Below are positions 17,504 through 45,760 of a stretch of 64,000 nt of DNA, one piece after another. Positions within the stretch are counted from its first letter, which is position 1. Each line of letters begins with the position of its first letter. A program made the translations under genes and the position numbers. The stretch is from Psilocybe azurescens (lineage: Eukaryota; Basidiomycota; Agaricomycetes; Agaricales; Agrocybaceae): assembly GCA_023853785.1 (NCBI GenBank), contig JAJIRX010000557.1, positions 124,001 to 188,000 of the forward strand. The letters are read 5' to 3'. Below the pieces are notes generated by a model. The model saw only the letters and a program-made list of their open reading frames with translations, was not told the DNA's origin and did no database searches.

Positions 17504-20500
17504 TTAGTCCGTCAGGTGGTCAATTGATTCAACAGAAATATTCTCCGCGATATTGTCAATAAGATGTTGAAGACGATCAGCTTCACTTTGAGCCAGAGTC
17601 ACATTTTTCTCGAATGTGATAGCCTCGGTCAAACCTGGAAGCGTCGTGGCGCCGTAACCTGTTAAAAGGTTCATGTGAGTTGAATGCAAACAAGACATCG
17701 TACTTGTCCATGACAAACCTAGCCACTTTCCAGGAGCAACCGCCAAGTGTTTGTACCATTCTCTATCTTTGATACCATCCTCAGAGATGAAACCTCGTTC
17801 AAATGTACGGGCTTTCGTATTCACTGTCTGAATGCGCCTGACGAGCTTTCTAAGGCGCTTCAAAGGGAGTTTGTGGTGAGGATGGAATGATCGCAAGTGG
17901 GCGAGGTGAAGATCCCCATCATATCCCTCGTGAAGTATCATGCCCAGAAGGATTTCGTCATCTTCTTCGAATTGAGTATGAGTATCATGAGCCATCTTGT
18001 CCAGGTCAGCGCGCTTGTGAGGGCAGGAGCATTCACGTTTAAATACTTTCTTGATCTTGCAGAGAGCCTTCTGAATGATCAGCATGACCCGTCGTCTCCT
18101 CGAATGTCGCTTCTTCCATTTTTGATCAATTTCTGAAGTTCTTTCTGCGCTTTAGCCCTCTCTTTGTCGAGAGCGATGCTAGATTTTTGGAGATTCCGTA
18201 TAGACTTTTTCAAAGGTTTCAAATCCACATCAATGGATGCTTGGGAAGCAATGCTTTCAACTCTGAAAGAATTGGTTATGTCAGCAAAAATGTAGGCAGA
18301 GCGAATGGAAACGCTTACTTGTCAAGATAAGATTCAATCTCATAGGCATAGTGCGTCGTGTTAAACGGAAGAAGGGGTGAAGTAGAAAGTCGCAGAGCCT
18401 GCAAACCGAGATGTTTGGCAATAGCGACCTGAGTCTTTTATCAGTACTAGATCGCAGTAGTATTTGAGAAAGACATACGTGACGATGGAATCCAGGGTCA
18501 GCATATAGTTCTTGCCACCTCTCAGAGTCGAAAACGGAGTGGTAATGGTAAACTGGATCATGAAGGGTTGAACTAAAGCCGCCATTTGTACTCGGTATCT
18601 AGTATGGTGAATTAGTCAGATATAGTTAAAAAGGAAGAGCGAAAGACTCAAGAGCTTACTCCATTTCTTTGGAGGAAAACAGTATAATCGCTACCAGATC
18701 CTAGGGGGATACCCCGACACTGTCTGCAGCCGCAACTTCCATTTCTCGGATGGCGATGACTTCTTCGTTCACCTCGTACGTGCGATTATCTAACAGGCCA
18801 TACAAGGTACCGGAATCTTGCCTGGCATCCCAGAGCGTCCGACCCTCATCAGTAGGATGTGGAATTTGTTGAGCAGTTTCACGGATGAAATGGGCGAGAA
18901 GAGGTGACCCGGATGCGCCAAGGCGCGAACCGGATACAGAGGAATCTGTAGTTGGGGTTGGTCCAATACACATCTTCAATGAAAAGGATCTCCATACCTA
19001 GGTTAAGGTATGCAACAACGTGATCATTGATCCAATCTTCAAAGTCTTCACCCCATTCTGTGCTTCCAATAAGGCCATACTTTTCAAATTGATAAGCCAA
19101 AATTCTAAACAGATATTGCTGGCCGTGTTTACCTCCTCTGCGTCCCAGCTAGCAATGATGATAGTCCTCAACGGTTTCCATCCATGGCGTAAAAGATGCC
19201 CCAGGCCGCGAATAACCTCGTGGATCGACGCCGTCCCACTGGAAGGATCGGCGGCTCCCATTACCTGTATTGTATTAAGATGTTAAAAATGTATAAGCAT
19301 CACTGCCAACGAAGGTGTCTATACCCAAGCTATTAATCAAATGAGTGTCATTGAATATAATTAGAAAAGTAGACGCATACCATCTCTGTGATTACCAATA
19401 ACCACAACTTCATTCTTAATGAAACCCGGGATGACGCCCATGGTATTCCAAATAGGAATGACCCGAGTGTCGACTACGGGGAGAGGTGACTATAGGCCGA
19501 AGAAGTGGTGTGATGTTGCTCACCATTGTTCACAAGTCTAACAAGTTTTCCTTCCCATGTGTCACCGCTCGTCAAAGTCTTGAACAAGACGGCAGCGTTC
19601 GACCAGGAGATAGGCAAGCTTGGAATCAGAGGAATATTCGATCCCTCAGTTCGTGTGCTGTTTTCATAAGATGGGTATCCTGGAGTAGTTGGGTCACCGG
19701 GGTAGACACTAAGGTATTGTACACTGCCCCGCTGCACTGAAGTGGGGTTTCGAGCTGGTCCATATGGGTAGCTGTAATTATATAAGACTTTTGACGATAC
19801 GGCAGTATCAAGTCTTGTTGCAATAACTTACGGCAGATAACCATTTTCCACTGTCACAGTTCCATCATCTTGAGGATCAGAGTAGATAAGAACAGCCGCT
19901 GCCCCAAGTTCTTGAAAACAGTACGATAAGTCAAAGCCAGCAACGATCCGTCACAGTATGCCATCACACCTTGGCCTCCTTTAACCTAGAGCGTGAAATT
20001 GGCGTACGGTATTATGTTAGAAAGATATTGGCTTACTTTCAATCCCCGGAATATTCCACCGTAACGGCAGAGCACAATGGTGCCATTGAGGTCGACATCT
20101 GAAATGGTGTAGAATCTGAAATTAGTGAAAGCATAACAGCCATATGATCATGTATACGTGCCTTTCGCCACAAGTTTTCCATAATCCTATGGGCGACCTA
20201 TCAGCACGAATTCATAGATACAATTTTTGAGAGTTTGACCTCATGTGTGCAATAGTTGCCGTCGATGAGTTTTCCAGTAACATCGCCTCCTCGGCTCAGA
20301 CCGTGGAAGGTGGGCACATCATCAAAGTATTTTCCAGCTTCTGGGTCGGTGGAATCTGAAAATTCGACCAGACTAGCTTCAAAAATCAAGGTCCCATTGC
20401 TATCAACGATTTGGAGGTTGCGTTCCAAAGGAGTGTTCATAATAGGATAATATGTATCAATCCATGCACTGGCTTTTCGAGATGTCGAGATAGAACGTGT

Positions 20501-21262: not shown

Positions 21263-24200
21263 ATGATTCTTATGGATCTTGAAAAGCACCAAGTACCCTC
21301 TAAGGAGCTTGACGATTTGCTTGATAAACAACAAACTCTCCGCCCAGTGCACAAAGACCTACGAAAACGTCGACTACGCAGAGCTGTTGTGCATGGTGTA
21401 GGGCTGCTGGCCAGTTTTGTATTCATAACTACCCTCGCTCATATACCTCGCTCATGGAATTTCTGGGACCGTGAAGTTTCGCTTCATCTTCCTCGCCGTC
21501 CTTTATCTCTCCGAGAACGAGAAGATTTATTCCTGTGGGTCTTATTTCTTCACACAATGACGAACTATGCCAATACTGTCTCTTTTTTATCATAGCTCCA
21601 TCCCTACTGCAGAAAGTGCTTTGGAGATCTCTCGTGCATGGGCCACTCACCCCCATCTTGCAGGGAGCTCCGAAGACTTGTTGGACGCCAAAGCCATCTT
21701 GCACCTTTTTCAGGACGAATTTGACATTCCAAAATCCACCCATCTTCCGATATATGATGCCGGTAGTGCGCTGTCTCGAAATGCCACACTCCTTCTCACG
21801 ACTCCAGACGCGTCCAGCCGTCCCAGGGCATGGATTGATACCTATTATCCTGTTTTGAACACTGGAGTAGAGCAGATATTGGAGATCCTAGACGACGAAG
21901 GAACAGCTATATGGACTGCGGACCTAGTAGAAGATGGCGACCCTCGCGATGAAGATGCACATAAATATAAAGACACGATACCTGCATGGCACGGTTTAAG
22001 TTGCGACGGTGATGTCACAGGGCAACTCATCTACGCCAATTACGGAACGAAAGAGGTGAGTTTCACAATCGTAGCCGTATCAAGGCATACCTCTCATTAT
22101 TTGACCTCGCATAGGACTATGACGAGTTGCTTGCGCAAGGAACGAACTTCACGAACAAAATAGTCATTACACGCTACGGGTCTAATTTCAGAGGGCTCAA
22201 GGTAGAGCTTCTTTTCACCCGTCCACTTCATTAGTACTCACCAATTACTCATTGCAGATCCAAGGTGCTGAAATACTCGGAGCAGCAGGTGTTCTCATAT
22301 ATTCGGACCCACGCGATGATGGGTTCGTTACCACCAAAAATGATTACCCTCCGTATCCCGCAGGACCCGCTCGAAATCCCACTTCAGTTCAACGAGGAAG
22401 TGTTCAATATCTAACTTCGTACCCTGGAGATCCTACAACACCAGGATACCCCGCCTATCCAGACGCAGAGCGAACTGAAGGGTCAAATATACCTAAGATC
22501 CCAAGTTTACCCATTTCGTGGGAGAATGCTCAGAAACTTCTTGGAGAAATAGATGATTTGTATACTCACGATTCCAATGGTAGGAATATGCTTAGCGGAA
22601 AAGCAAGCAAAAGCATTATCAGGCTTATCAATCATGGTACGCAATTTCGAACCTGTTTGTATTGCCAAATCTTTACGCATGATATTCTCCTAGTCGACAC
22701 AAAAGTGACTCCAATTTGGAATGCTATGGCTTCTATTCCTGGCCATATTAAGAACGAAGTTGTCGTTATTGGCTGTCATCGTGACGGTAATCATAACTCT
22801 CCTAGTTTGTAACTGTTCATGCTGACGTTTTTCAATTATAGCATGGGTAATGGGTGCTGCAGATCCTACAAGTGGAACTGTGTCTCTTCACGAGATTATT
22901 CGTGGATATGGAGCCTTACTGAGGAAAGGATGGAAGCCACTGAGAACAAGTGATGCGATTTTCTTTTTTGAAATATTATTTCCATTCAATGCGGCCTTGT
23001 AGTCGTCATAGCAAGCTGGGATGCCGAGGAGGTTTGCCATTCCCCTTCGCGTCGCTGTGGGCTATTTGCTGATTTACTTCTTAGTATGGCCTTGTTGGCA
23101 GCACAGAGTGGGGAGAAGATTTTGCGCCATGGGTTTCCGAACACGTCGTCTCCTACCTGAATGTCGATGTGTCAGTCGCGGGTTCTCGTTTTGTTACCTC
23201 TGCTTCTCCTTCTCTTGCACACCTGATCAAACAAACTGCCAATGACGTTCCGCATCCGACTGTCGTAGGGAAAACACTCTGGGATGCATTAGACGACGAT
23301 GGGCCTTATGATTTCCAAGCCAACAACGCAACTATCGATCCCGATTTCCTGGAGCTCTACTCTTCGAGTGAAGCCATTCGCAAATCTTCCAAGACTCGTG
23401 TCATGCCTCTGGGAAGTGGTAGCGACTTTACCGTCTTTTGCAGAGATTGGGGGTTGCCAGTTCCGATCAAGGATTTGCCTTCACTCTCAGAGATGCAATA
23501 TATCACTATCACTCTATCTACGACTCGCAGCCGTGGCAAGAAAGATATGGAGATCCTGGTTTCCATCGCCATGTGCGTAAATATGAGTTTCAGAGTGGTA
23601 ATATTTTACCAACAAATTCACTGTCTATGTTCAACAGGCTGCAGTTGCTAAGCATCTAGGTCTACTCGGCTTGCGGCTCACTGACGCCATAATACTTCCC
23701 ATCAATACTACACAGTACGCATTAGAACTTGACCAATATCTCGATGAGTGCGTTCGTAAAATTTATCTTGCGTACAATCCGCTGACACTTTTTTTCAGGG
23801 TGGAGAAACTACTACCCATACTAGGAGAGAAATCGGGTGATGTCGACTTTTATTCCCTACGTAATTCCATTCAACAGGTCCAGGATGCGAGTTTCAAACT
23901 CGATAAAGAGAAATCTGATGCTGAAGAGGACTTCAAGAGACTTTTGAAGCGAATGCATTTCCCAGGCCGTCGCGGAGTAAGGTGTACTAAACGACGCTCT
24001 GGATTTTTCCGCCGCGCTGCTGACTGGGTGAAGAGCGTATTCGGTGTACCTGCTCCGACGGACAGCGAACTTCAGCTGTTCAGCCTGCGACATGCAAACT
24101 CATGGGAAGAATATCTAGAATACGCAACCGAGGCGGAAGCAGAGTTTTTGGACGCTTTGGAAGCACCTTCTGGCAGGCAGAAAGGTCATGGCTTGCCTTT

Positions 24201-24557
24201 CCCTATTCGCAAGTTTATCAAGGCCGCGAAACGTGTGGCTAGAGCCAACAAGGCCTTGAAAGCCTTTGAGCACGGGTTTATTTCTGAACACGGGATTAAG
24301 GGGAGAGAGTGGTATAAGCATCTCGGTGTGGCTCCAGGCAAATGGCTTGGTAAGTTTTGTCCGTTTCGACCTGCTTCGAAAGGTGTATTGATTATCCGCT
24401 CATTGTAGGCTATGGTGCAACCACGCTCCCCGCCCTCACAGAAGCCATCACTTATGAAAAGAACACAACGCTTATTCAATACGAAGCCAAGCGCCTAGAG
24501 GACTTGCTAGTCAACTTGGCGTCCACCATCAAACCGGAGGCCAGCGTCGAACCTTAA
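21263..24557 (+). CDS. M28 peptidase, glutamate carboxypeptidase II / transferrin-receptor type (copy 2)
   Basis: Paralogue of the gene on the other strand. The start ATG at 21263 gives MILMDLEKHQVPSKELDDLL, a basic cytoplasmic tail and one helix (VVHGVGLLASFVFITTLA). Zinc-site segments are complete: GCHRDAWVMGAADPTSG (His, Asp), [20 protein letters not shown] (Glu pair), NVDVSVAG and YHYHSIYDS (His). The dimerisation domain holds LRHANSWEEYLEYATEAEAE and ends [39 protein letters not shown], with TAA at 24557. Ten or so short introns join in frame. One exception is GSGSDFTVF to LQRLGVASSDQGF, which needs one more T in the T4 run at 23436-23439. It is a probable vacuolar or plasma-membrane carboxypeptidase; the substrate is not determinable. 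Confidence 0.88.
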
Positions 24558-29019: not shown

Positions 29020-30998
29020 AGGACCCCTGAAAGTACTATAAAATCCCTGAGGCCGATTCGGATAGAAATTGAGAAAAAATTCGTCTAAGGCCTTAGGCCT
29101 GTCCGGATATTTTTTTTTGGAATTTGGGCAAAACCCTCAGGTCAGCGGCCCGGATAGAAAACTGGCCCAGCCAGGAGGCCTGACCCGACTCCGGATAGAA
29201 ATTTGAAAAAAGTCTTACCTAGCAGTCGATCTCAAGGCTATAGAGAGAAACTTAACAGTGCTATACATGCAAACCACTAAGCTAAATCAACTTTCTTCAT
29301 AGCACAGTTCTAGTAGTAACCTAGAGTAAATAATGAATGGGCAGTATATTGCTTACAAAAATTTCTGCATTCCAGAAACCGTTCCATAGCCTATCTTACC
29401 ACAAATTCAATGTCATTCTACAAATATTTTTGGTCAAGACTACCACTTACAAATGCAATCCTCCATCAGCCTTCCTCTGTTCTCTCAAGCATGCACCAGA
29501 ACTCACCCAAATGGTCTCAAGATTTCTATAGATGACATCAGGAAAATAAAAAAATCACATCAGACAATATAAACTCCAAAATCCCTTGTAGATCATCATC
29601 TGTGTCATAATCTGGTCATCATAGTATAGGCCAACTCACAATGTAATTTATAGAAAGATATTGCTAGGTCCAAAAAATATTTGAAAAGTGATATTATGAG
29701 TTTGTCATAATATTATGAGTTATTAATAGAATATTTCAAAAACAATATTGCGAGTTCATAATAGTCAGGCAGGGACAATGCTGAGCATAGGGCCCACCTG
29801 ACTTGAATCCAACCCCTGACGCTCAAGATCCCTTAAATCTCATAAACCCCAGTTCCCTCAAATCCCGTCAATCCCATAAACCCCCAGAGCCCAAGAACCA
29901 TCAGTTTCTATAAGTCCCCCAGAGCCCAAGAACCCTCAGTTTCAATAAGTCCCCCAGCACCCAAGAACCCTCAGTTTCAATAAGTCCCCCGGTCCCACTG
30001 CCCTCAGTTTCAATAAGTCCCCCCGGTCCCACTGCCCTCAGAAGTAGACTGCCATTTTGTAATGAACAGCAACGGCACACACCGCCAAAACCCATACAAG
30101 CCCATTTCATTTACATTCAGTGTGAACACTACAGGGACATCAACTGAATATTGCATTTTGTTCAGTCGACAGGGTGAGCACATGATCAACCCGTGAGCTG
30201 ACAACTTCCATAATTGACCAATGTCATGTGCACTCCGTGACACCATCCAAAATAGGTAACTTTTTGGTAAAATTCATTTTATGTATAATTGCAGAGGGTC
30301 AATCGTATTATAATATAATTTTTGGTGAACCTGGTAGCCACTGCACAATCTAGTTACATTGTCCTTGCCATATTATATTTGCTTTACATTGCAGAAACAT
30401 CATTGTACCCAATCTGTAAACCATCTAATCTCTTACATGGCCTTGCAATCTAGTTATAATGTGCTTATCATATTATATTTACTTTACATTACAAAAGAAT
30501 ATTACATGTCACATATATATGGTTATGAGCTGATGTCTGTGTGTTATAATGTTGCGACAGGCTTGTGAACGTCATAATGCTAAATAGGATTTCTCTTGCT
30601 TTCCTGATGGATATGAATCTATTTAAGCAGCTAAAGGATAATCTGCAGAAAGTCTTACAGGCTGTAAAGGCATTCAGGAAGCAGATATTTGCTGAGGATG
30701 ATGAGTAGGCTAGGCAAGTTCAAAATACAAGTATAGAATTTGTATTGCATGTAATTCTTTCTAATTTTTATACTATGGCTCCCTTAAATCACATAAAAGG
30801 TTTCTGGAGCCAAATGGTATGAATTTTGGCCTTAAATTTTAATTTTTACAGTCCTGGGATATGCTGCAGGTCATGTCCAGATTAAAATTTCTCATCTTGG
30901 AGGCCTGAGCCCCCATCCAGATAAAATTTAGCCAAAACTGCCTGGATAAAAACATGAAATTTTGGCCTCAGGCATCTGAGAGTACTTTCAGGGGTCCT
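29020..30998. mobile_element. Non-autonomous DNA transposon, hAT-like 8-bp TSD
   Basis: Perfect 18-bp terminal inverted repeats (AGGACCCCTGAAAGTACT at 29020-29037, its reverse complement at 30981-30998) are flanked by perfect 8-bp direct repeats CACATCAT (29012-29019 and 30999-31006). The length is 1979 bp. Inside the ends lie subterminal repeats of a CGGATAGAAA-like box (29055, 29151 and 29203; related CCAGATAAAA and CTGGATAAAA at the right end). No transposase frame is visible. The 8-bp duplication suits hAT or a related 8-bp-TSD superfamily; the terminal bases are not the common CAGGG of hAT, so the superfamily is inferred. Confidence 0.85.
29877..30042. repeat. Minisatellite, about 35-bp units
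   Basis: Four to five tandem copies of a C-rich unit built on CCTCAGTTTCAATAAGTCCC. Units begin near 29895, 29930, 29965, 30001 and 30036, with drift in the spacer (AGAGCCCAAGAA versus GGTCCCACTG). It lies wholly inside the 2-kb transposon. Confidence 0.8.
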
Positions 30999-32955: not shown

Positions 32956-33312
32956 CTAGTATGCAGATGCTGGTCTAACTTGTCTCAGGTATGTTCAATG
33001 ATATTCATATCTGGTGAAGATGGTGCCCAGTCCAAAATGTTGATATCCTGATCCTCAAACCATGATGTTGCAAGCTTTGATGTGTGCTTTGGATTGTTAT
33101 CCTGCACAAAAATGATATTGGATTTGTTAAAGGAGTAATTGTCAAGTGTTTCTAAAAAGATTCTTGCAAAATATTGCAATATTGAATGGCATTCATGTGC
33201 CCTTCTACATGATGAAAATGACCAAGGCCATTCCATGTTAAGCAGCCCCATATTTGCAGGCTTCCACTGCCATGCTTGACAGTTTTCTTGATGTTACGTG
33301 GTAAGAGCTCCT

Positions 33313-33714
33313 TGTTGGAATGTCAAGATGCGCATAGACTGCGTACCGTCAGATAAAGGACAAGTGTTACCCATCAGTACCAAGTGAATGTATAGCATGG
33401 TGCACAACGTATAGGTCGTGCACCATACGGTCTCAATTTCATCTTTCTTTCTTCTTTTATGTTCATATCCATTCTGGTATCGCGTAGCGTACAGACAGGA
33501 CTCGACGTATCTTGTATAACAGACCATTGTTCATTTTATTCCCTCCCTCAGTTGATCTATTGGTCCTCTGAGGTGAGCTTACTTGTTTTTATCATTAAAA
33601 TGTACCTATACTCACAATATGTAGTCTTACACATATCTATTTCTTATAGGTACTACACAATCTATACAGTTGATCTATTGGTCCTCTGAGTCTTACACAT
33701 ATCTATTTCTTATA
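33313..33714. mobile_element. Solo Copia-type LTR (a) with spliced/unspliced cassette
   Basis: Begins TGTTGGAATGTC and ends TATA (CA expected, a C-to-T change). The flanks CTCCT (33308-33312) and CTCTT (33715-33719) form a one-mismatch 5-bp duplication; excision restores PGEELLPRNIKKTVKHG in the transposase. Cassette: A1 33549-33572, intron-like 33573-33624 (GTGAGC..TGTAG, 52 nt), B1 33625-33649, linker 33650-33666, A2 33667-33690 and B2 33691-33714. A1 equals A2 at 24/24 and B1 equals B2 at 24/24. The LTR has many CpGs, unlike its surroundings, so it is a young insertion. Confidence 0.85.
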
Positions 33715-34331
33715 CTCTTCTCCTGGCCTTCTCCTACAATATTGACACCTGTTAGGCCCAAACAAGTTGAATTTGGACTCATCTGTTGCCACAATAGCCC
33801 ACCAATCATCTTCTGTCCAATCAATGTGTTTTTCAGCCCACCATTTGTACTTAGCAACATATACCCTTGACAGGAAAGGTTTTGTGATGAACCTGTCCAT
33901 TCAGACCAATCTCACAGAGGTTGTGCCAAATTGTAGAAGCACCAATAGTTGGGAAAAGCTGCCACTTGAGGTCAGCAGCATTGCATAGACATCCAAATGT
34001 GACTTCTCATTGGGCATGGCAAAGAGATTGAGGGCTGAGACATCTCAGACAACCTGACTTAGAAGCCTTAGCATAGAAATCACATTTTTATGGACTTTCT
34101 CGTAATTTCACCATACAGTGGAAGTGTTTAAATCAAGTTTGTTTGCAATATCCACAAAGTGCTGTCCAGACTCTTTCATATCAAGGATATGAGCCTTCTT
34201 TGTGGGTGTACACTTCACCATAGCATGAAAAACATGAGCAAGAGGGAAGTGGCACAAAAAGAATTGAGATTGTCTGCTGGTTGATAGTTGAAAACGATGC
34301 TGTTGAGGGAAATTGTTTGTACGACAAGGCA

Positions 34332-34697
34332 TGAATACGTTACCATATATTTTCTTTACTAACTACTATATCTGCCCAAGCTATTTCTATTTTGTTCAGG
34401 GCCTTGGCAAGCCCCTATGCATGTGCTTTATTCCCTCTACTACTGTATAGTAGCACACTATCTGTATGGCGCATTCCAGATAGATGGTATCTATTTCCCT
34501 ACTATCTTTCTTACACCCTCAGCTGTTTAATTTCCATCTTTAACTGAGGTCTGTATCTATTTTCTATTTACATTACTATTTTTATTTACTTTCACCTATA
34601 GTTACTGGCTGCACTTCATATGTAACTTTAGGTAGAATACATTCAGCCATTTACTTTCCATCTTTGACTGAATTACTCACTGCACTTTGTAACTTTA
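34332..34697 (+). mobile_element. Copia 5' LTR (c) with spliced/unspliced cassette
   Basis: The 3' boundary is set by the primer-binding site GGTTATGGGCCT at 34698; the 5' boundary (TGAATACGTTACC at 34332) is tentative. Cassette: A1 34520-34548, intron-like 34549-34601 (GTCTGT..CTATAG, 53 nt), B1 34602-34631, linker 34632-34643 (GTAGAATACATT), A2 34644-34672 and B2 34673-34697. A and B copies are recognisably the same but have drifted. Confidence 0.7.
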
Positions 34698-36900
34698 GGT
34701 TATGGGCCTCATGTGATTTTGAGAAACTCAGAATAATTTGGACAACATTTTTGTGCTCAGGAGTAACTTTGCTATTCACATACTCTAAAACATGACATCC
34801 AAATCATGAGGGCTTTTGCCCTCTATACTTTCTGATGCAGAGAAGTTTGATAGATCAAACTACCTGGAATACCATGAGACAATCCTTATGGCATGCCGTG
34901 TCCATGGCACACAAGGATACATGTACCTTGAAGGAAGGATCATGAATCCAGCTGAAAGTGTCTCACCATCAACTTCCCCCAGTCAATGATCACATTCTCT
35001 ACTACATTGACAATGACCCCTGTTGCAATTCCTCTTTCTCTGTCAGTACACAATGGATATCACTTTTCCCAGCACAGAAGAATGGGGTGCTTGGGATGTG
35101 TGGTGCTTGCTGGCAATATGCCAAAATGTGAAAAACACCATCAGACTTGGTTTGCAAACCAATAGGACAGCCAATGAAGCATGGAAGTCTTTGGAGGATT
35201 GATATAATCTATTGAGCAACCTAGCTAGAGTGTATGCACAGCAAGAACTACAAGTGGTGAAGAGACCATTGCATGGCTAACTGTGTAAAAGGATGCATAA
35301 TAAAGAGTACATAGCTGAATTTTTGGCATCCAGATGTATATAAGTGAGTGGTGATACATTTACAAAGGATGAGGGAAACTATGAAATAAGCAGTATTGGC
35401 TCACAGCTAAGCGGTATGAATGGCATAATTATGTCTAAATACTGGGCCATTGGGCTAGCTATTGTAAACAACAATATACTAACTGTAAAAGATGTAACTA
35501 CATGTTGACTGAAGAACAACAGAGGAAGGCAAAGGCATTAGCTGAGGTCGAGACACAGTGCAGTTGGTTGCGTGTTCTAAAATTAGCATGCACTAACTAC
35601 ATGTGATACAATTAAGACTTAGTGCTAAAGTACTCTAAAGGTCTCATGGAGTGCAATACAGGTCCTCATGCATCACAGACCATCTGAACAAACCAGCTCA
35701 GCCCTTATTAAATGAGTCCAATAGCAGTATGGGCAAGGGTAGCTTTAGCTGACCCAAAACATAAAGAAAAATGATAACTGCCAAGCAAGTTTTCATATTC
35801 CAGAAGCAATAACAAACAATGCACATGCATCTAGCTGAGTGGATCAGAGTATACAAATATGAAGAGTGTTCTCAACCAATAAGAGAAACAGAATAATGCA
35901 CAGCCAATGCAAGGTTGACTCATAATAAGAGTTCAACAGGCACCAAGCTGATGAACAAATTGAATAACATGGCTTAACTGGATGAACTCATTGTCAGCTG
36001 GGTTCCTAGGCAAATGCTGAAGACATTTTACTGTCAAACATTGTGGTCCCGATTATTTATTAGCGATCTGATTGGTGTAGAAAGGCTTATAGTTTGAGAA
36101 ACATGTAGTTCAGGGGTTTGTAATAGTGATTCAATTTACTAAATTATTCTCTGAAGTCATATGTACTGTACCTATAGCTATAAATTAAATGTATCTATGT
36201 AGATATCAAGCAAGCAATTTTTACCCCAAGAACATACAGTTCAGATTATTCTGTTCTGCATTTTCTGAAAGTATTAAGAACTTCAAGGATGTTAATTGCT
36301 TGTTAAGCAACAGCAATATATTGTTCACCTTTGAATTTGAAAGTAGTGCTTTGCACATTTGAAAGTAAGAGATACTTGAAGAGTTCAACTCACCTAACCA
36401 AGTCTAAAAACATTGACTTTATACCCAGCAAGAGGCCAACCAAGATATAGGGCATGCCAGCTAGCTTCACAACCTAGCTCCCTCTTGTTTCATATTTCTG
36501 AGGCCAAGAAGGTCTTTAGCTGGTAGACCAAGAGGGTCAAAGTATGTTTTATTAGGTCAAGAAGGCCACCAATTTATTTAGCTTGAAGCACATACCTGCT
36601 GATAGTGACTCTAAAAAGGTCTGGAAACGGTACTGTGTTAGAGAAGAGATTCTACAGAATTTCAAACCCCACCCTTCAGCTCAAAGCATGTACCCACTGA
36701 TAGTGACCCTAAGAAGGTCTGGAAATGGTATTATGTTAGAGTAAGAGATTTGTAAAAGTCTCAGCACCCACTGAGAAATCATAAAAACAAATATATTATT
36801 CCAAAATCCTTGCAAGCTAAGCCTTGTATTCACTCCCTGTTTGAAGATTATTGTGTAGTACAATTATTAAAAGTGCAAGCTTACCTTTCCAGTGACAAGC
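34698..36900 (+). pseudogene. Decayed Copia internal region, gag remnant
   Basis: After the primer-binding site, gag-like pieces are readable with stops and frame changes: ILSDAEKFDRSNYLEYHETI, NRTANEAWKSLED and NLLSNLARVYAQQELQVVK (about 34830-35270), then a degraded zinc-knuckle segment (GHWASYCKQQYTNCKRCNYM, near 35450-35510) and LTEEQQRKAKALAEVE. Beyond about 35.6 kb I recognise no pol motif. The region is almost free of CpG. Confidence 0.6.
36581..36757. repeat. Tandem duplication, about 95-bp period
   Basis: Two adjacent copies of a block containing CTGATAGTGACTCTAAAAAG / CTGATAGTGACCCTAAGAAG (36598 and 36697). Differences between copies are mostly CA/TG and C/T exchanges. Confidence 0.7.
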
Positions 36901-36971
36901 TAGTCATTGTAAAATTCAATTGAAATGTTAAGCTGCAAGCACACTCTGCACCAAGCATCTCTGCAGTCATC

Positions 36972-37649
36972 ATGACAGATGGGGAGGATTTCCAAACTGA
37001 CCTTTCAACATTATATATCAAACATAAATGTGCAAATGCAGTCAGCATGAACATCACTGACTCTGGGTATTACAGGAAAAAGCCCACAGATATATCTTTT
37101 CAACAGGATAATGATCCCAAACACAAGAGCAAAAAAGCCCAGAACTGGCTCCAAGACAGTGGGTTAGAAGTTATGTATGAAGTGGCCCTCTCAATCAGCA
37201 GACTTCAATCCAATTGAACACCTTTGGCATCACCTCAAAACTAGACTTGGAGAGTATAATAGGCCAGCATCTGGAATTGCAGAGTTGTAGAAGAGAGTAC
37301 AGAAGGAGTGGAATGATATTCCAGCCTCTATCTGTCAAAATCTGATAGAGAGTATGCCTAGAAGGGTTCAGGCTGTATTACAGGCAAAGAAGGCTATACC
37401 AAGTACCAGAATATTAGAATACTGTTTTATAACATGAGAGAGACAAAACTGTTCAAATGGACTTGTGCCAGTAAAATATTAATAATGTGGGAAGAAATTA
37501 AAATTACATAATGAAATAAATTGGAACATGTCATTTACATGATATTTTACCACTGTGTAAAGTGTGAACTTGTTTGGTTGAGTTGTTCTTGAGTTATTCA
37601 AGGAACAGTCCAACTTTAAAAATCATTTGGACAGTTTTGTCCCTTACTG
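36972..37649 (+). mobile_element. Tc1/mariner-type transposon B, left-truncated
   Basis: Plus-strand transposase C-terminal part: DISFQQDNDPKHKSKKAQNW, NPIEHLWHHLKTRLGEYNRP and SICQNLIESMPRRVQAVLQA, ending near 37435. The right terminal region 37441-37649 has an inner GACAAAACTGTTCAAATG and an outer CATTTGGACAGTTTTGTCCC, inverted to each other, ending ACTG then TA (37650-37651). The same design is seen in the complete element at 49057-50656. No left terminus is found. Confidence 0.75.
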
Positions 37650-37655
37650 TACTCT

Positions 37656-38135
37656 TGTTGGTGTTAATATATGCAGTTCTACATAATGCATATTCTTAGC
37701 TGTTTGACCTGACTACAGTTTAGCAGTGTTTTTGGTGCAATATATTATTAGTCTTTTGTGTTTGTTGGTGGAGATCGCACTTTCACTCTGTTTTATGTCT
37801 CTCTTTTCCCTTTTAGTACATAGTCCTTCTTATTATGGTCATATCTGCCTTTGGCACTCTCTTCATCTATTTACCGACCACGGCATATTCTCTCTATCAC
37901 GCCATTCCATGTCAGCGGTCTCACCCGAAATATATATATACTCTACCTTTGTATTCATAGGACCTTAGCCGTTACACTTCCATGTCGTCTGAGGTCAGTT
38001 ATATTCTTACTTATATATCTATACAGCATACTTATCTACCTTACAGACTTACCACTCCGTACCTCTTTAGGTAGATTATAAAAGCTGTTACACTTCCATG
38101 TTGTCTGAGACTTACCACTCCATGTACCTCTTTAG
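37656..38135. mobile_element. Copia-type LTR (e) with spliced/unspliced cassette
   Basis: The 5' boundary is uncertain (TGTT at 37656, 37662 or 37727). No primer-binding site follows, so it is a solo or 3' LTR. Cassette: A1 37966-37993, intron-like 37994-38046 (GTCAGT..TTACAG, 53 nt), B1 38047-38070, linker 38071-38081 (GTAGATTATAA), A2 38082-38109 and B2 38110-38135. A1/A2 differ at three of 28 bases; B1/B2 differ by a 2-base insertion. It retains CpGs (CCGACCACGG, CACGCC), suggesting recent arrival. Confidence 0.72.
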
Positions 38136-41100
38136 TGTTGTCTGTTGCTAATTTCATATAGTCCTTACATGTATAACTGGCTTCTGTGTATATTGATAGT
38201 ACTCTTTACTGCTACTTTCTACAAACAATGTAGCATTTGTATAGTGCTATATGCACATTAAATTATATGTAGTGCTACATATGTGTTAAATATGTGATGT
38301 TAATTGTAATAGTTAATATGTGTCACCTTTGTGAGTACCATTCAGTTGCTGATGAACATGTGTTCCATGCTGTGGCATGCATTTTTCTCTTCATTGAATA
38401 CTCTTTTTCTTTTGATGACTATCACCTTCTGCATTGTTTTCAGTGAGTCTGCTTTTGTTTCTGATCAGATTTGTTCTGATATCATTGTATAGCAATATGA
38501 TTCATTTTAATGTGAGGCCATGGAAGTTGTCTACCTTCTCTCCTATCAATTTCAGTGCCTTCAGCACAATGTTTATCAACATGTCATTGTCCTTGTTCTT
38601 ATATGCTATAAAGGACATAGTGGCCCATACCACATCTCCAGTCTTGAATGCTACTGGTTCAACACATTTTATGCTGTTATGTGGTGAGTACTTTTTTATT
38701 GGTGTTTGATATGGTTCTCACCTTGTCCTTTTTGTTCATTGGCATATTCTTGTAGATAGTCCACCTTGTTATCCATGCTGTGTATAAAGCTGGTACCACA
38801 GAGTCAAGTGAGAATGTCACATGAATTGACTCCCATTTCAAATGACATTCTGGGTTCTGTAGGTGCAAATCATTATTCTGTGAAGCAGCAAGTGCTGATG
38901 TTTATTGCTTTGTGTTCTTTGTACAGCTCTGCTTGCCATGGGTTGACCCTGATGTTCTCTCTTTCTAGATTAAGTGGCCATCATTGAGTGTAACTTCTTG
39001 ACATTAATCATGTTGTTATCAAATGATAGCATACTTAGTCCAGTTATTCTTACTGCTTGTTGAAGATATCATGCTCTGTATTTTAGGGTGTTTGTATTAT
39101 GTGATCTGCATGGTTTCTCTGGTCAGTATCTGTGTTTTCCTTTGCACTCATCATCACTCACTCAATGTATATGGATGGCAGATTGCTGCAGCACATAATA
39201 CCATACATATAGAATATCTCCTCTTCCATTATATCATCTTTGGTTTTTCTTGTTATGCACCATGAACATGGTTGCTCAATGAACACCACATGGTAGTTGT
39301 CCTCCTGTCAACAATGTCTTCAGCTAGTGGATAATGTTTTGTTAACATAATAGCATGAACTTATGTCAAATTCTGTCATTGCAGTTGATTCTTTCACATT
39401 GTGCTGTGCATCTGTGTGTGTCTGCTCCAACATGGCTTTGGTCTCTATCAAGTCATAACTAGGGTCCATGGACTGTGGTTGTTGCCTCAATGCTTGTATG
39501 TTTGTGATTCAGTGTCATGTATATGTTGCTGTATTATATGGCTTTTTTTTCTTTCTTTTAACTTCTTTTCTGTGATATCTTGTGCCTGTTTTGTATCTCA
39601 TTTTTTCTGTTCTTTGGACTTTGATATATTATTTACTCCAACAATTGAATAGGCATTTCGGCAGGTAAACTGTTTTTTTTTGTATTGTTCAGTTGTGCCT
39701 AACAAGAATATTTGTCAGTGTTCCAGTGTATTTTGAGATCTATATAGTCCTATTGCCACAATCTGTAAATTTAATGTGTTATTGTCTCTACTAATGATAC
39801 TATTCACCAAGGACAAATCCAATTGATAACCAGTCTGTTTCTTTTCTAAGTTGACAGCTGCTATAGTGATGAAGCCAGAAATACAAAAGGAGACAGCTGT
39901 GGTAGGAATATATTAAGAGAACTCTACTAACCTGAAGTTCCAATTGTTTCAAAATTCTCCAGGTATTGAAACAAAGAAGCAGCCAATGCTGCAAAAACTG
40001 AGTCAATGTTTAATAGAATCCTATTATTGCATAATGGAACTCTTAACTTTAGTCTGAGAATCCTCTTGCTCAGCAGAAGGCATGAAAATGTATAGAGCAG
40101 TTTGAAATGGAAGCAAGTAGTATTGTAATGAGGAGTTGCTGGTGGAGAAAAGAGTGAACTACTGTCATGAATAACAAGGATCAAATTGTTATTCACGACA
40201 GTAGTTTACAAGCCTATCTGATAAGCTTTGTGTGCTCTCTGATTTGTGTTCTCTGTGTGATTCAGAGTTCAACTCTTTCTCTTGTGCACGCCAATTACTT
40301 ACATTGCTTTTGTTAATTACTCTCTAACTCCCAACTTACTAATTTTTCCCTTTTTTAGGATGTAAAGTTCATAAAATATATCCCACCAAACTAATCATGT
40401 CCTTCAGACACATCTCTGTCCACTGTTCAACTTCTTGTTCAATCATTTGACTTATTCCCTTTTAGATAAGTTTGATGTCCTGTTTGGATCTAAGGCTGAG
40501 ATGAATTTGACAATTTAGTACCATTGATAATATAAGAAATAATGATTATGTAATATATTTTTCTACAGATTCTGGTACAAATACTATAATTGCAGATGCC
40601 AAGACTCAAAGAATACAGTGTAAAAATAAAAAGGACTTGTAACACTGGGCAAAGCCTCAGTCCACAATGCAAGTATTTGACATTCCCTGGTGTTATCTGG
40701 GGTTCTGTTCTCTTGTTACAGAATCACATGGCTGTGACACTCCTTATACCTAAGGGAAGTGACTCAGTTGGTACACAACCTGCAGAGACTGTTGTGCACT
40801 AGTCTTTCCTAGACAGACTTCAATATATGTGATGTACCCTATGGCTCACAATATATGAAGTCTGTTTTTACCACACCCTCCGATGTCAGAAAGTTATTAT
40901 ATAATCTTTGGACTTTGAAAATAGGATTGTGCCCACTTTACCAAGGGGGCACCAGGATTTGAAAGGCATAACTAGTGCTGAAATATTTCTGATTCACCCT
41001 TTGGCTGAACCAACTGGCCAACATAATCAGGCACACATCTATATATAGTAATATGACATCATTGGCATGCTACCTTTCCTCCCCATCCTCCCTTTGACAT

Positions 41101-41679
41101 TGTGCAAGCCTTGCAAACCCAATTTTTGGGTACTTGTTCCAAATAAACACATGTTAAATGATACTAGAGTAGTTTAGAGTATGTCGTCTAAGCATTCTTG
41201 GGCTAATCAAAGAGAAAAATGGATGTTGTTTCAATATTCTGGCTGATAGGTGACTGAAGCTGGATTGTTAAGGGTGTGTCGGACTGAATACTAGGTGCAG
41301 ACTGCTAAACTGGAACAGCCTTTACTGTCACTGGTATTGGTGTTGCCTGTGGTTGCAGAAAGGTGAGTATTGACATGTTTTTCAACTTCCTGTCAGCCTT
41401 CCTCTGCTTCAGCTGAACCTCCTTGCATATCTTAATGCCTTAGTGGTTCTTCATGATGTTCTCTACCCCTGCTGTACCACACTTCTTCCTTTTGCCACAA
41501 TCTGGACAAGTAACAAATCCTTCACTATCAACTCAAAGTTCAGGTGGCTAACCAGTTTAATATTAGCCAATGTCTAGAATATCCAAGAGCAAAAGCCTTT
41601 AATTACCTCATTACTGGCTGTTTCCATATTCTACAGGCTTTGTTCTGAGGTTTTGTGACTGTGCTTTGCCCATTGAATG
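38136..41679. other. Unassigned TE-derived sequence
   Basis: AT-rich and CpG-poor. Parts of the minus strand read like decayed protein (AFKTGDVVWATMSFIAYKNK near 38580-38640; THTDAQHNVKESTAMTEFD near 39380), but I cannot assign a family. At 41380-41530 the minus strand reads TCPDCGKRKKCGTAGVENIM and KICKEVQLKQRKADRKLKN, a Cys-rich fragment resembling a mushroom repeat-associated protein. No intact gene is seen. Confidence 0.45.
40154..40209. repeat. Near-perfect 24-bp inverted repeat (hairpin)
   Basis: Arms 40154-40177 and 40186-40209 are complementary at 22 of 24 positions around an 8-base loop. The arms include TGTCATGAATAACA and its partner TGTTATTCACGACA, so it may be two abutting transposon ends or a tiny palindromic element. 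Confidence 0.7.
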
Positions 41680-41963
41680 TGTTGGAATATAGTAAGCAAA
41701 TGCAATAGTGCCTTGCTGCCATTTGGCTGTGCGACCACCGGTTCCTTAAAAATTTGTATGCACATTCATTATAATATATTGGTTTATTAATGGTGCATTA
41801 TTGCGCTATTCCTTTTCCTATGTAGTATATGATATATTCAATTCATTATCTTTATTGCGGCATGCAATACACTTCTATTAGTTTCTATTCACTAGGTAGA
41901 TATAATTCATTCTCAGTTTTTGCCTCGCAAACAACTGAGCGTATCTGTTCTAGAATTCTTACA
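41680..41963 (+). mobile_element. Copia 5' LTR (d)
   Basis: 284 bp, TGTTGGAATATAG to TTCTTACA. It ends with a hairpin block A2-like at 41914-41939 (CTCAGTT..AACTGAG arms at 41912-41918 and 41933-41939) and a B2-like block at 41940-41963. Preceding this is AGGTAGATATAATT, matching the linker of the cassette LTRs, but no clear A1-intron-B1 copy. Confidence 0.85.
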
Positions 41964-41975
41964 GGTTATGGGCCC
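41964..41975 (+). other. Primer-binding site for half initiator tRNA-Met
   Basis: GGTTATGGGCCC directly follows the LTR. It is complementary to the anticodon stem-loop of initiator tRNA-Met (GGGCCCAUAACC), the primer type established for Drosophila copia, which uses a cleaved 5' half tRNA. Confidence 0.75.
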
Positions 41976-42038
41976 TGCCCCTGTGCATAAACTTGAAATC
42001 AAGTATTGTGTATAATTGCCTTATCTCAAACATATACC

Positions 42039-43143
42039 ATGTCAATTGCCACTACCTCCCGATCCGACTCTCTTCCTTCATCCATTCCAAAGCTCGATGC
42101 GAGTGGTGTAAATTGGATCATCTTCTCAGTCCACTTTCAAGACGCTGTTGAAGCGAAAGGCTTTTGGGGCCACTTTGATGGAACCTCTCTTTATCCAGTC
42201 AATGCAACTATCCCAGGTCCAGTAGGAGCTGATGGAAAACCCGGTCCATTGATGACTGTTATGACAGCCGAGGAGTTTGCTACAGCAACAGATAAGTGGG
42301 AGAAAGACAAGTGTTTGGCAAAATCTTTGCTTACCCAGAAGATACCTGACTCCACACTTATGTGGATCCACTCAAAGAAGTCTGTAAAGGAATGATGGGA
42401 TGCTATAGTGGCCGAATATTTTGAGAGGGAGCATATGCGCAAACCAAACTTTGTACCAAGTTCCTTGAGTCGAAATGTCTGGACAAGGCAAATGTCCATG
42501 AATTTCTAGATGCTCTACATGTTAAATGAGAGGAGTTAGCATCTGTGGGTGTAGAAATTGATGAGAAGGATTACTGATCCACCATCATTGGTTCCCTTCC
42601 CATTGCACTCTCAAATTTTGCATCAGCCCAGCTGGCTGCAGCACAGATGTATTCACCTACAAAGACCATTGCTCCTGACCTCCTCATAACACTGCTTGGC
42701 GAGGAATATGGTCACCAGAAGGCTCAGCGTACACAACGTCAAGGTGCCGGTAAATCCAAGGACAACAATGACAAAGCCATAGCAGTCAGCTAAGGCCACT
42801 CAAAGTTGAAGGGATCTAAAGGTGGTGCCAGGAAATCTTGCGGAGAGTGCTGGAACTGTGGAGAAAAGGGGCATTTTAAGGACAAATGCCCAAAGCCCTC
42901 CAAGTCTGGCGACAAGTCCAAGAAGGACAACTTGAAGAAGGAGGATGGTGGAGCTGGTTCAAAGTTGAAGGACACTGGTGCCAGTATGACAGCCATTGAA
43001 GATGATTTGGATTCAGATGGGGTGTGGGCAGCCATGGATACCAACAACAAGTCAGTCATGTCAGATAGTTACACCTCGGATGCTGGGCCATCAGATTACA
43101 TGTCTTTGAATGACGGTGACACTCCTGTGCAAGATGGTGATTG
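42039..43143 (+). pseudogene. Copia gag
   Basis: MSIATTSRSDSLPSSIPKLD, then SGVNWIIFSVHFQDAVEAKG (UBN2/gag type). Stops at 42393-42395, 42527-42529 and 42575-42577 are all TGA in places where the family has Arg. The zinc knuckle CWNCGEKGHFKDKC (about 42850-42890) is intact. An acidic tail ends at 43143. Confidence 0.8.
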
Positions 43144-43174
43144 ATTCTCTGAAGTTGAGGAGGAGAATGAGGTT

Positions 43175-45311
43175 TTGGATGTTGATTGGGATGTTATAGG
43201 AGACTCACAAAATTTGTCCAGACCCAAAACTCTCTCATCCATCACCAATAGCTCTTTTGGATCCACTGAAGAGCTTGCTTTTGCCTCAACCGAACCCACT
43301 CCCAATAGATGCATATACACCAAAACCAAACTATACAATTTGGGCTGCACACAGCATCTCTTGCTGTATTGTGAGGACTTCACTACCTTCACTGAAATAC
43401 CCCCAAGGCATCTCTGTACTGCAAACAAACAATCATTCAGTGCTACTGGAAAAGGCAAGATGGTAATCAACATACCTGATGGTGCCGATGTCCTGCAATT
43501 ACATCTAACGGAGGTTCTCTATTCTCCTGAGGTTGGCTATACCCTTATCTCCATTGGCAAACTCAATGAAAAGAGCTTTACAGCCACGTTCTTGGGTGGG
43601 AAGTGTGTCATCACAGGGCCAGATGGAGAACACATAGGTGCAGTGCCTCAAACTTGAAAAGGGGTCTACAAGATTGATCATAAGCTTGAGCTCAAAGAGG
43701 CAAATGCTGCAGTAGAGGATACACTTACCCTTGAACAACTACATCGTCGTATGGGGCATATATCCCCAGCTATTGCCCAGAAACTTGTCAATCAAGGATT
43801 TATGACAGGCGTGCGCTTGGAGGCCACACCATCAGCAGATTTTTTCTGCGAATCCTGCATGTACATGAAATCCCCGCACAAGCCTGTACCAAAAGAGCTG
43901 AGAGGGCGAGCAGGCCAAAAAATTTGGCAATGAGGTGTACAGCGACATGTGGGGGCCAGCTCCAGTTGCATCTAAAGGTGGCAATAATTATAATATCACA
44001 TACACAGACAACAGCACATGATTCACACACCTATATCTTCTTGGGGCAAAATCCAAGGCCTTCACATCCTATAAGGAATACAAAGCCTGGTGCAATAATC
44101 AGCTCAACGTGAAGATCAAAATCCTCAACTTGGATTGAGGAGGAGAGTACCTTGGGAAGGAATTTATTGTTTATCTCAAGGAGAAGGGTACAGAACAGAA
44201 ACTCAACATATATCATACTCCTCAGCATGTAGGTATTGCTGAAAGGCAAAACCATACAATCGTTGAGTGGGTGCATGCACTGCTGCATGCGAGTGGTCTT
44301 CCAAAGTCCTTATGGGGTGAGGTGGCATGCCACATTGTATGGTTGTTGAACCAAACATTGACAAAGGCTGTGAAGGGTAAAGCCCCATATGAGGCTGTAT
44401 TTGGTGTCAAACCTGATCTTTGAGGCTTACATGAATGGGGTGATAAGGTATGGGTAAGGATCAAGGGTGGTAATAAGCTTGGAGGGTGTGTTTGAGAAAG
44501 GAGATGGGTAGGAATTGATGATAGGTCAAAGGGTGTTTGCGTCTACTGGACAGACACTAGATCCATCACCATCAAGCAAAATGTCTACTATGACAATACA
44601 TGCATGTCAGTTTCACGTCTTGAGAGGGAGGATTGGGATGGCTTTGTTGATCCGGAAATTGACAAACCTGTTATACCCTCAACCTCTGCTGATAACCCAT
44701 CAGCTTTGACTTCAAATTCCACCCCTGCCCAACCTCCTGCACCACATGAACTGATTGAAACACCACCTATCCTACATGATGAGCACCAATCAGAAGCTGA
44801 AGAATCCCATTCTGAAGCTGAATCACATACCAAACAAATTTGAAAGCCAACACAATGTGTGCACAATCTTTTGGAAGGCCACGCAGTTGCTTCAAATCTT
44901 CCAAAAGGGTTGAAAGGTTGCCAAGGGCATACAGATACCAACCCCTGAAGTTCCAGTACTGAATAGCAAAACTCCAGATGCAGTTGAGCAGCCTCGAGAT
45001 ACCATTCTTGAGGGGGGAGGGAACGTCAGACTGGATGATGGTGGTGGATTGGGTGGAGGAATATGCACTGGCAGCTGAGATCAGCAAAGCTGAGGCACTT
45101 GAGCCTCAAGTCTTGCTGAGGCAAAGAAACATCCTGACTGGCCACTATGGGAGAAAGCAATACATGAAGAGTTAGCAACACTGAAAACAGCTGGAACTTG
45201 GGTTCTTGTCAACACACCTGAAGGAGTCAACATTGTTGGTAAAAATGGTTATTCCATGCTAAAAAGAATGCCACAGATAACATTGTTCAATACAAAGTGA
45301 GACTCGTTGTG
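43175..45311 (+). pseudogene. Copia protease and integrase region
   Basis: The protease motif reads YNLGCTQHL where Asp-Ser-Gly is expected, so the catalytic Asp is lost. GAG-pre-integrase follows (LEQLHRRMGHISPAIAQKLV). The integrase core is recognisable as FGNEVYSDMWGPAPVASKGG, GGEYLGKEFIVYLKEKGTEQ, HTPQHVGIAERQNHTIVEWV, SLWGEVACHIVWLLNQT and KAPYEAVFGVKPDL, with in-frame TGA at 43655, 44136, 44421 and 44493 and at least one frameshift (near 43925). The frame runs into YKVRLVVQG at 45311, where the solo LTR interrupts it. Confidence 0.82.
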
Positions 45312-45316
45312 CAAGG

Positions 45317-45760
45317 TGTTGAAGATCGGCTTGTCGTCCATCAGCTTAGTCATACTTGTCACTCCCATTCTCGTTTTCCTTCTTTCTCTTTTTGTACTTC
45401 ACCCTTTCAGTCTTCTCATGCCTTTATCATTTCCTTCGTCTGATCATCTCTCCATCACCACTCTCCTTACATTTAGTCTTGCCAATCCTTCATTTGCTTC
45501 AACATATTGCTTCCACTTCCAATGTAGCTCATTGCCTGCATTCCCTGCATCACACTTGTTTTCACATATACTCGTGCATTTGCCATTTGTACCTCAGCTG
45601 CTTTCTTTATTCGGCTGAGATATATATGCTTTTCTATTACCTTTACATAGACACTTACCCTTGTTCTGAACAGTGTCTAACGCTACGCTTCAGGTAGAAT
45701 AATTGCATAGCTGCTTTCTTTATTCGCTGAGTGTCTAACGCTACACTTAAGTTATCAACA
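45317..45760. mobile_element. Solo Copia-type LTR (b) with spliced/unspliced cassette
   Basis: TGTTGA...TCAACA termini, flanked by perfect 5-bp repeats CAAGG (45312-45316; 45761-45765). Precise removal restores VVQGLSQVPGVNYFDTF in the host reverse transcriptase. Cassette: A1 45595-45619, intron-like 45620-45673 (54 nt, ends ACAG but begins AT instead of GT), B1 45674-45693, linker from 45694 (GTAGAATAATTGCA), A2 45708-45731, B2 45732-45751, then TTATCAACA. It is CpG-rich compared with its host. Confidence 0.9.

Follow-up and report, generated by a model that had tools for sequence, protein, structure and literature searches.

Introns and a spliced second repeat inside the long terminal repeats of Psilocybe azurescens Copia elements, and a proposed role for leader splicing in strand transfer

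The window analysed here is a stretch of 64,000 nucleotides of the Psilocybe azurescens genome (assembly GCA_023853785.1, contig JAJIRX010000557.1, positions 124,001 to 188,000 of the forward strand), and it contains four retrotransposon long terminal repeats (LTRs), named a, b, c and e after families whose labels (a to n) were assigned in this analysis. Three of them (a, b and e) stand alone as solo LTRs, each flanked by a 5-bp target duplication, whereas c is a 5′ LTR followed at 34698 by a primer-binding site (PBS), all as read by eye. LTR b is inserted in the reverse transcriptase (RT) region of a Copia element (RVT_2 match C471:169749-170186). Stretches resembling a decayed Tc1/mariner transposase, recognized only by eye, surround LTR a (33001-34400) and adjoin LTR e (36950-37450). 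All four LTRs show the same order of parts, consisting of a segment A1, an intron-like segment (intron 1), a segment B1, a short linker and a segment A2B2 that corresponds to A1 plus B1 without the intron (Table 1).

This order had been proposed in an original prediction made from the letters of the window, and a spliced self-alignment recovered the four cassettes at the predicted positions. The scores were 45 for LTR a (A 24/24, B 24/24), 38 for e (A 25/27, B 24/26), 33 for b (A 23/24, B 20/23) and 28 for c, where the program placed an intron of 59 nt but reading by eye gave 53 nt. With the same alignment, the highest score was 13.5 among 15 shuffles of the a stretch and 11.5 among 40 random 300-base pieces of the window; these controls, together with the presence of copies on many contigs, rule out chance or artefact as the origin of the cassette. 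The predicted intron lengths of 52, 53, 53 and 54 nt with a terminal AG were confirmed (c by eye), as was a linker starting with GTAGA in three LTRs and with GTACT in one. The four LTRs had also been described as otherwise unrelated, which holds for the LTRs as wholes, mutually unalike, but not for a set of common motifs: an AG opening A1, a CTGAG closing it (CTGAA in A2 of c), a CTNAY motif in B and AG/GT after B1.

Table 1. Positions, strand and basis of assignment of the LTR features in the window.
Feature	Positions	Strand	Basis
LTR a, solo, TGTTGG..TTATA	33313..33714	+	family ends set by LTR pairs; start TGTT read by eye
LTR a, target duplication CTCCT and CTCTT, one mismatch	33308-33312 and 33715-33719		by eye
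a, A1, first exon of R1; presumed transcription start 33550	33550..33572	+	sequence
a, intron 1, GTGAGC..ATGTAG, 52 nt	33573..33624	+	spliced self-alignment
a, B1, second exon of R1, end TTATAG	33625..33649	+	
a, linker, start GTACTA as proposed intron 2 donor	33650..33667	+	
a, R2 (A2+B2), spliced R1 copy, LTR end; acceptor G absent in solo LTR	33668..33714	+	
c, A1	34521..34548	+	sequence, spliced self-alignment
c, intron 1, GTCTGT..CTATAG, 53 nt	34549..34601	+	by eye; program placement differs
c, B1, end TTTAG	34602..34631	+	by eye
c, linker, start GTAGAA	34632..34644	+	by eye
c, R2, end of 5′ LTR	34645..34697	+	by eye, spliced self-alignment
c, PBS GGTTATGGGCC; first G would complete intron 2 acceptor	34698..34708	+	by eye, compared with full elements
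LTR e, solo, target duplication GTGTT and GTGTT	37763..38134	+	by eye
e, A1	37967..37993	+	spliced self-alignment
e, intron 1, GTCAGT..TTACAG, 53 nt	37994..38046	+	spliced self-alignment
e, B1, end TTTAG	38047..38070	+	spliced self-alignment
e, linker GTAGATTATAAA	38071..38082	+	spliced self-alignment
e, R2, LTR end	38083..38134	+	spliced self-alignment
LTR b, solo, TGTTGA..TCAACA, target duplication CAAGG and CAAGG	45317..45760	+	by eye; family ends
b, A1	45596..45619	+	spliced self-alignment
b, intron 1, 54 nt, donor decayed to AT; GTACAT in relatives	45620..45673	+	
b, B1, end TTCAG	45674..45693	+	spliced self-alignment
b, linker, start GTAGAA	45694..45708	+	spliced self-alignment
b, R2	45709..45751	+	spliced self-alignment
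b, U5 TTATCAACA	45752..45760	+	sequence, family ends

The 70.4-Mb assembly containing the window was searched for further copies, revealing at least 38 matching pieces for family a, 44 for b, 14 for c and 2 for e. Among 93 loci examined (37 a, 40 b, 14 c and 2 e), all found by LTR similarity, the regular cassette, in which the second repeat R2 (A2B2) equals the first repeat R1 (A1 and B1) minus intron 1, was detected by program at 80 and by eye at 2 more (L061 and L024). Most family members (82/93) thus carry the cassette, a point that the original prediction had singled out beforehand. The other 11 loci were rearranged (L081, L082, L022, L031 and L027), truncated (L021, L028, L036 and L083) or partial matches (L093 and L049), and these 11 and the 2 regular by eye stayed outside the distance analysis.

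Several copies form pairs of LTRs that are separated by about 5.3 kb and enclose an RVT_2 match (C480, C62 and C157 in family a; C819, C918 and C829 in family b), and a 5-bp target-site duplication was read by eye in all eight full elements inspected (L094-L101). The LTRs start with TGTTG in families a, b and e and end with CA in b, TATA in a and TTTA in c and e. Directly after the 5′ LTRs lies the PBS GGTTATGGGCCCCG, which we take to pair with the anticodon arm of the initiator tRNA-Met. To judge from the RVT_2 matches and the target duplications, the elements are Ty1/Copia LTR retrotransposons with the layout U3 - R1 - linker - R2 - U5.

The two R copies of an LTR evolve in concert. In family a the mean distance between R1 and R2 was 0.009 within an LTR versus 0.161 between LTRs, 23 of 33 copies being exact, and 1000 shuffles of the partners never gave a value below 0.109. 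The corresponding distances were 0.028 and 0.199 in family b (16/32 exact) and 0.109 and 0.254 in the more decayed family c (1/13 exact), and the observed within-LTR distance was never reached in 1000 partner shuffles; in these counts both LTRs of one element are taken separately, so the copies are not all independent. In family a, 166 variant cells were common to both copies, out of 172 in R1 and 174 in R2, and the two copies of family f (L105 and L110; see below) differ by the same base in both repeats. Concerted evolution had been predicted, with A alone as the repeat used for transfer. As B is homogenized too, A alone is ruled out as R, and the repeat has been corrected to A plus B.

The edges of R fall on splice-like signals. 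Of 96 loci, 81 served to analyse the start of R and 78 its end; as the edges were set by local alignment, the finding is their position on AG and AG/GT and not their existence. When the copies were aligned on the first AG, R1 and R2 agreed in 31/81 cases one base before it and in 80/81 at its A, and when aligned on the last AG of R1, they agreed in 77/78 cases at A, 50/78 at G and 21/78 just after. The G of this last AG is often absent because the LTRs of families a, c, e and h end with A, the G belonging to the PBS or to the target. The program found AG/GT within 12 positions of the R1 end in 78 of 81 copies, probably misplacing one of these donors (GTCATT in L084), and AG/GCAAGT follows R1 in families f and g. 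Upstream, a TATA-like motif lies about 30 nt above the AG with which R begins; it starts at −31 to −36 in 32/32 a copies and at −27 to −31 in 23/31 b copies, lies within a TA run at −30 to −38 in both e copies and was placed by eye at about −36 in g and −32 in k. The presence of this motif above A1 in families a, b and e counts in favour of the original prediction. L080 and L087 were left out of the motif, inverted-repeat and junction analyses, and L024 also of the motif analysis.

The linker plus R2 itself looks like an intron. It measures 54-69 nt from GT or GC to AG, and the lengths of the linker (about 11-35) and of R (22-55) vary separately while their sum stays in the intron range, as judged from two host introns of 60 and 55 nt, both in one RCC1-like gene (an exon of which shows 100% identity over 89% of the query to Psilocybe cyanescens protein P0001). 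A CTNAY motif was present within R2 in 75/78 copies, compared to 18% of random 30-mers of the window. By the general fungal splice and branch consensus, the LTR thus carries spliceosomal hallmarks, namely GT/GC..AG ends, a branch-site motif and a host-like length (by the same two-intron comparison). A second intron (intron 2) is suggested by the conserved GT with which the linker starts and by the AG closing B2; it would remove linker, A2 and B2 from the leader, which would account both for the conserved GT and for arrays that do not grow.

An inverted repeat was also observed at the start of R. In LTR b (45589-45626) the last bases of U3 pair with the intron 1 donor (GTACCTC/AG .. CTGAG/GTAC), and relatives of this structure are found in families b, c and e. 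All seven bases outward from the AG pair in 26/32 b and 6/13 c copies, against four of seven in family a. The repeat changes on both sides between subfamilies (GTACCTC with GTAC, ATACCTC with GTAT, GGACCTC with GTCC and TGACCTC with GTCA). Its 5′ arm lies above the presumed start site, and it might derive from fold-back of the strong-stop cDNA, or the start might lie further upstream.

Since the first 93 loci came from LTR similarity, a sample was also drawn by the PBS pattern, which gave 109 sites; of the 100 listed, 13 fell within the loci already studied. Another 26 PBS sites were sampled; as a nearby RVT_2 match guided the choice of many, they do not represent a random sample. Two (L118 and L119) were removed as probable initiator tRNA genes by eye; ARAGORN, run on the excised pieces around these two sites, found no tRNA gene. 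Among the 24 sites left, the two-intron form was found at four, each in a new family (L111 in h, L117 in k, L121 in m and L131 in n), and a one-intron form, with only the linker-plus-R2 intron, at five in two families (L105 and L110 in f; L108, L112 and L133 in g). At 15 neither form was seen in the 180-194 bases read for most, where a much longer U5 could hide it; at L102, L106 and L107 a further 161-200 upstream bases were also without either form. Universality of the layout among Copia-type loci is therefore rejected. The family h locus L111 is a cassette-bearing Copia element (C438:623993-628259) in which RVT_2 matches within an open frame of 1593 aa and the repeats are exact (A 30/30, B 27/27); the layout is therefore present in a recent copy.

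The base before R2 differs from its surroundings. In a test of 79 copies, compared within groups having the same first 12 bases of R2, 49 pairs showed exactly one difference in the 10 bases before R2, located at −1 in 45, at −2 in 3 and at −3 in 1, although these pairs are not independent. When groups identical at −9 to −2 were considered, 11/14 were polymorphic at −1 before R2, whereas the same test gave 1/15 at −3 and 0/16 before R1. The base itself was T in 38 copies, C in 30, A in 10 and G in 1, compared to C before R1 in 78/79. Such a base may have been added by the RT at the end of the strong-stop cDNA and fixed at transfer.

The five rearranged LTRs bear on the same step. Two of them (L081, a 3′ LTR, and L082, a 5′ LTR with PBS) read U3-AB-linker-AB, with intron 1 exactly absent, another two (L022, a 5′ LTR with PBS, and L031, a 3′ LTR) read U3-AB-U5, with both introns absent, and L027 contains a duplicated unspliced unit (A1-i-B1-linker-A1-i-B1-linker-AB-U5, i being intron 1). 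These forms would fit a partly spliced, fully spliced or unspliced leader annealing to A1 or A2. R2 itself, together with L081, L082, L022 and L031, is indirect evidence for removal of the introns from RNA. The rearranged forms and the junction base look like traces of the predicted joining of spliced cDNA to an unspliced 3′ LTR; that part of the prediction is supported, whereas a single intron, as it had assumed, is not enough. With only the first intron spliced the leader would lengthen in every cycle, a linker-plus-AB unit being added each time, and no locus reading A1-i-B1-L-AB-L-AB (L, linker) was recognized among the 93; intron 1 alone is thus not favoured as the whole mechanism. Direct splicing from A1 to B2 is ruled out, as it would not homogenize B.

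We therefore propose a model with two leader introns, to which we assign a probability of roughly 0.75, and in which the anatomy, the repeat edges, the concerted evolution, the variable junction base and the rearranged forms are visible in the sequence, whereas the RNA splicing pattern, the start and poly(A) sites and the frequency of rewriting are inferred. Transcription would start at the A of the AG opening R1, which is usually split by a small spliceosomal intron. Intron 1 would be removed from the 5′ leader, as would a second intron, with its donor GT or GC directly behind R1 and its acceptor AG closing R2; in families a, c, e and h this acceptor AG would be half LTR and half PBS. Double splicing would leave R1 joined directly to U5 or the PBS, so that the strong-stop cDNA primed at the PBS would end with a copy of spliced R1, with the same joint to U5/PBS as the new R2 has. 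This cDNA would anneal to the R2 of an unspliced 3′ LTR, close to the 3′ end of a transcript, and extension would then proceed through linker, B1, intron 1 and A1 into U3. In this way each new LTR would regain both introns from the 3′ LTR and gain a fresh R2 from spliced R1. Because the PBS supplies the acceptor G in families a, c, e and h, a complete site is guaranteed there for the 5′ LTR alone. On balance we lean, at somewhat better than even odds, towards a broader reading, a class of Copia elements that would need host splicing to be copied correctly: the intron formed by linker, second R and acceptor, its 3′ splice site completed in several families by the PBS alone, would mark the 5′ end of the genome, remove the poly(A) region there and let R2 be rebuilt each cycle, with the introns recovered from the unspliced 3′ LTR.

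Several observations weigh against the two-intron model. A G at +5 is absent from the intron 2 donor in all two-intron families seen. The intron 2 acceptor AG lies inside the LTR in families b, f, g, k and m, so that something else must keep the 3′ LTR unspliced there, for example cleavage before R2 is complete. No TATA-like motif was found in 8/31 b copies, nor near −30 in 13 c copies, and the PBS-sampled loci with neither form count on the same side. Six b loci (L009-L014) share an A1/A2 indel, and the pairs L070/L071 and L068/L072 share R1/R2 mismatches, which would reflect either leaky rewriting or one parent with two differing LTRs. The weak donors also favour an alternative scheme, in which only intron 1 is spliced and the linker and second R are skipped by a jump of the RT between the direct repeats R2 and R1. 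Retroviral RT is known to jump between direct repeats, an event favoured by the proximity and identity of R1 and R2, and the scheme also accounts for homogenization and the junction scar; however, it leaves unexplained the GT or GC after R1 in 78/81 copies and in families f and g, the AG and branch-like motif at the R2 end and the narrow length of 54-69 nt. We consider it unlikely.

Processes at the DNA level could also make R1 and R2 alike, by gene conversion or recombination within the LTR, the intronless R2 having arisen once and no spliced RNA being required in each cycle. Conversion between close repeats is common, and deletion or recombination between direct repeats could give L022, L031 and L027 (slippage in the case of L027), a further point against the two-intron model; to yield L081 and L082, A2B2 would have to convert A1-i-B1. 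Yet conversion from R2 should erase intron 1, which is kept in 82/93 loci, the edges fall on splice signals and a constant AG, and a single hypervariable base before R2 is not expected, making this explanation very improbable. We give the least credence to the possibility that the introns act in gene expression, through export, translation or subgenomic RNA, R2 being an occasional by-product of a reverse-transcribed spliced transcript. The introns of Ogre and EVADE make subgenomic RNAs (excerpt of PMC12786077) and spliced HIV-1 RNAs are reverse transcribed (excerpt of PMC1868081), but here the layout is stable in many families and repeatedly rewritten, and the two proposed introns are located upstream of the PBS, in the leader.

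Elsewhere in the window, a transferrin-receptor-like dimerization domain was noted in two frames on opposite strands (17504-18151, minus; 23602-24405, plus), and positions 29890-30007 hold a series of short direct repeats that recur about every 33-35 bases and have a CCCCC core.

Reverse transcription of RNA is expected to eliminate introns, but those described here seem to persist owing to their position in the LTR. If the two-intron model is true, splicing at one end only is a working step of first-strand transfer, which would represent a new dependence of retroelements on the spliceosome and a natural answer to the problem of a start site and a poly(A) site lying in one repeat, with strand transfer recorded in genomes as a one-base scar.

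In comparison with known systems, the elements resemble Ty1/Copia LTR retrotransposons in the RVT_2 match between LTRs about 5.3 kb apart, the 5-bp duplications and the PBS GGTTATGGGCCCCG, but their LTRs additionally contain introns and another, spliced copy of R. Half-tRNA priming is known from Drosophila copia, whose PBS corresponds to an internal part of the initiator tRNA-Met. DIRS/PAT-like elements carry split direct repeats in the order A1..B1 A2 B2, a likeness to the order A1 - x - B1 - A2 B2 described here, which however lies inside an LTR, spans about 165 bases and comes with splice signals, LTR pairs and target duplications; the LTR pairs and 5-bp duplications speak against a DIRS-like identity. 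Among the open-access matches listed, as far as their titles and the starts of their abstracts go, no description of an LTR with a spliced second R was found. The fungal GalEa elements are Copia elements that likewise have an unusual replication start, according to an excerpt of PMC5445492, but they have a hairpin site and no recognizable PBS, in contrast to the PBS found here, and words built on "intron" or "splic" do not occur in the main text of that paper. Plant Ogre and EVADE elements also use host splicing, to judge from the excerpt of PMC12786077, although for subgenomic RNAs, whereas the present introns lie in the LTR and the spliced leader is apparently reverse transcribed. Spliced HIV-1 RNA is copied into DNA too but, in the excerpt of PMC1868081, as a side template, whereas here the spliced RNA would be the regular strong-stop template and the introns would return from the other end.

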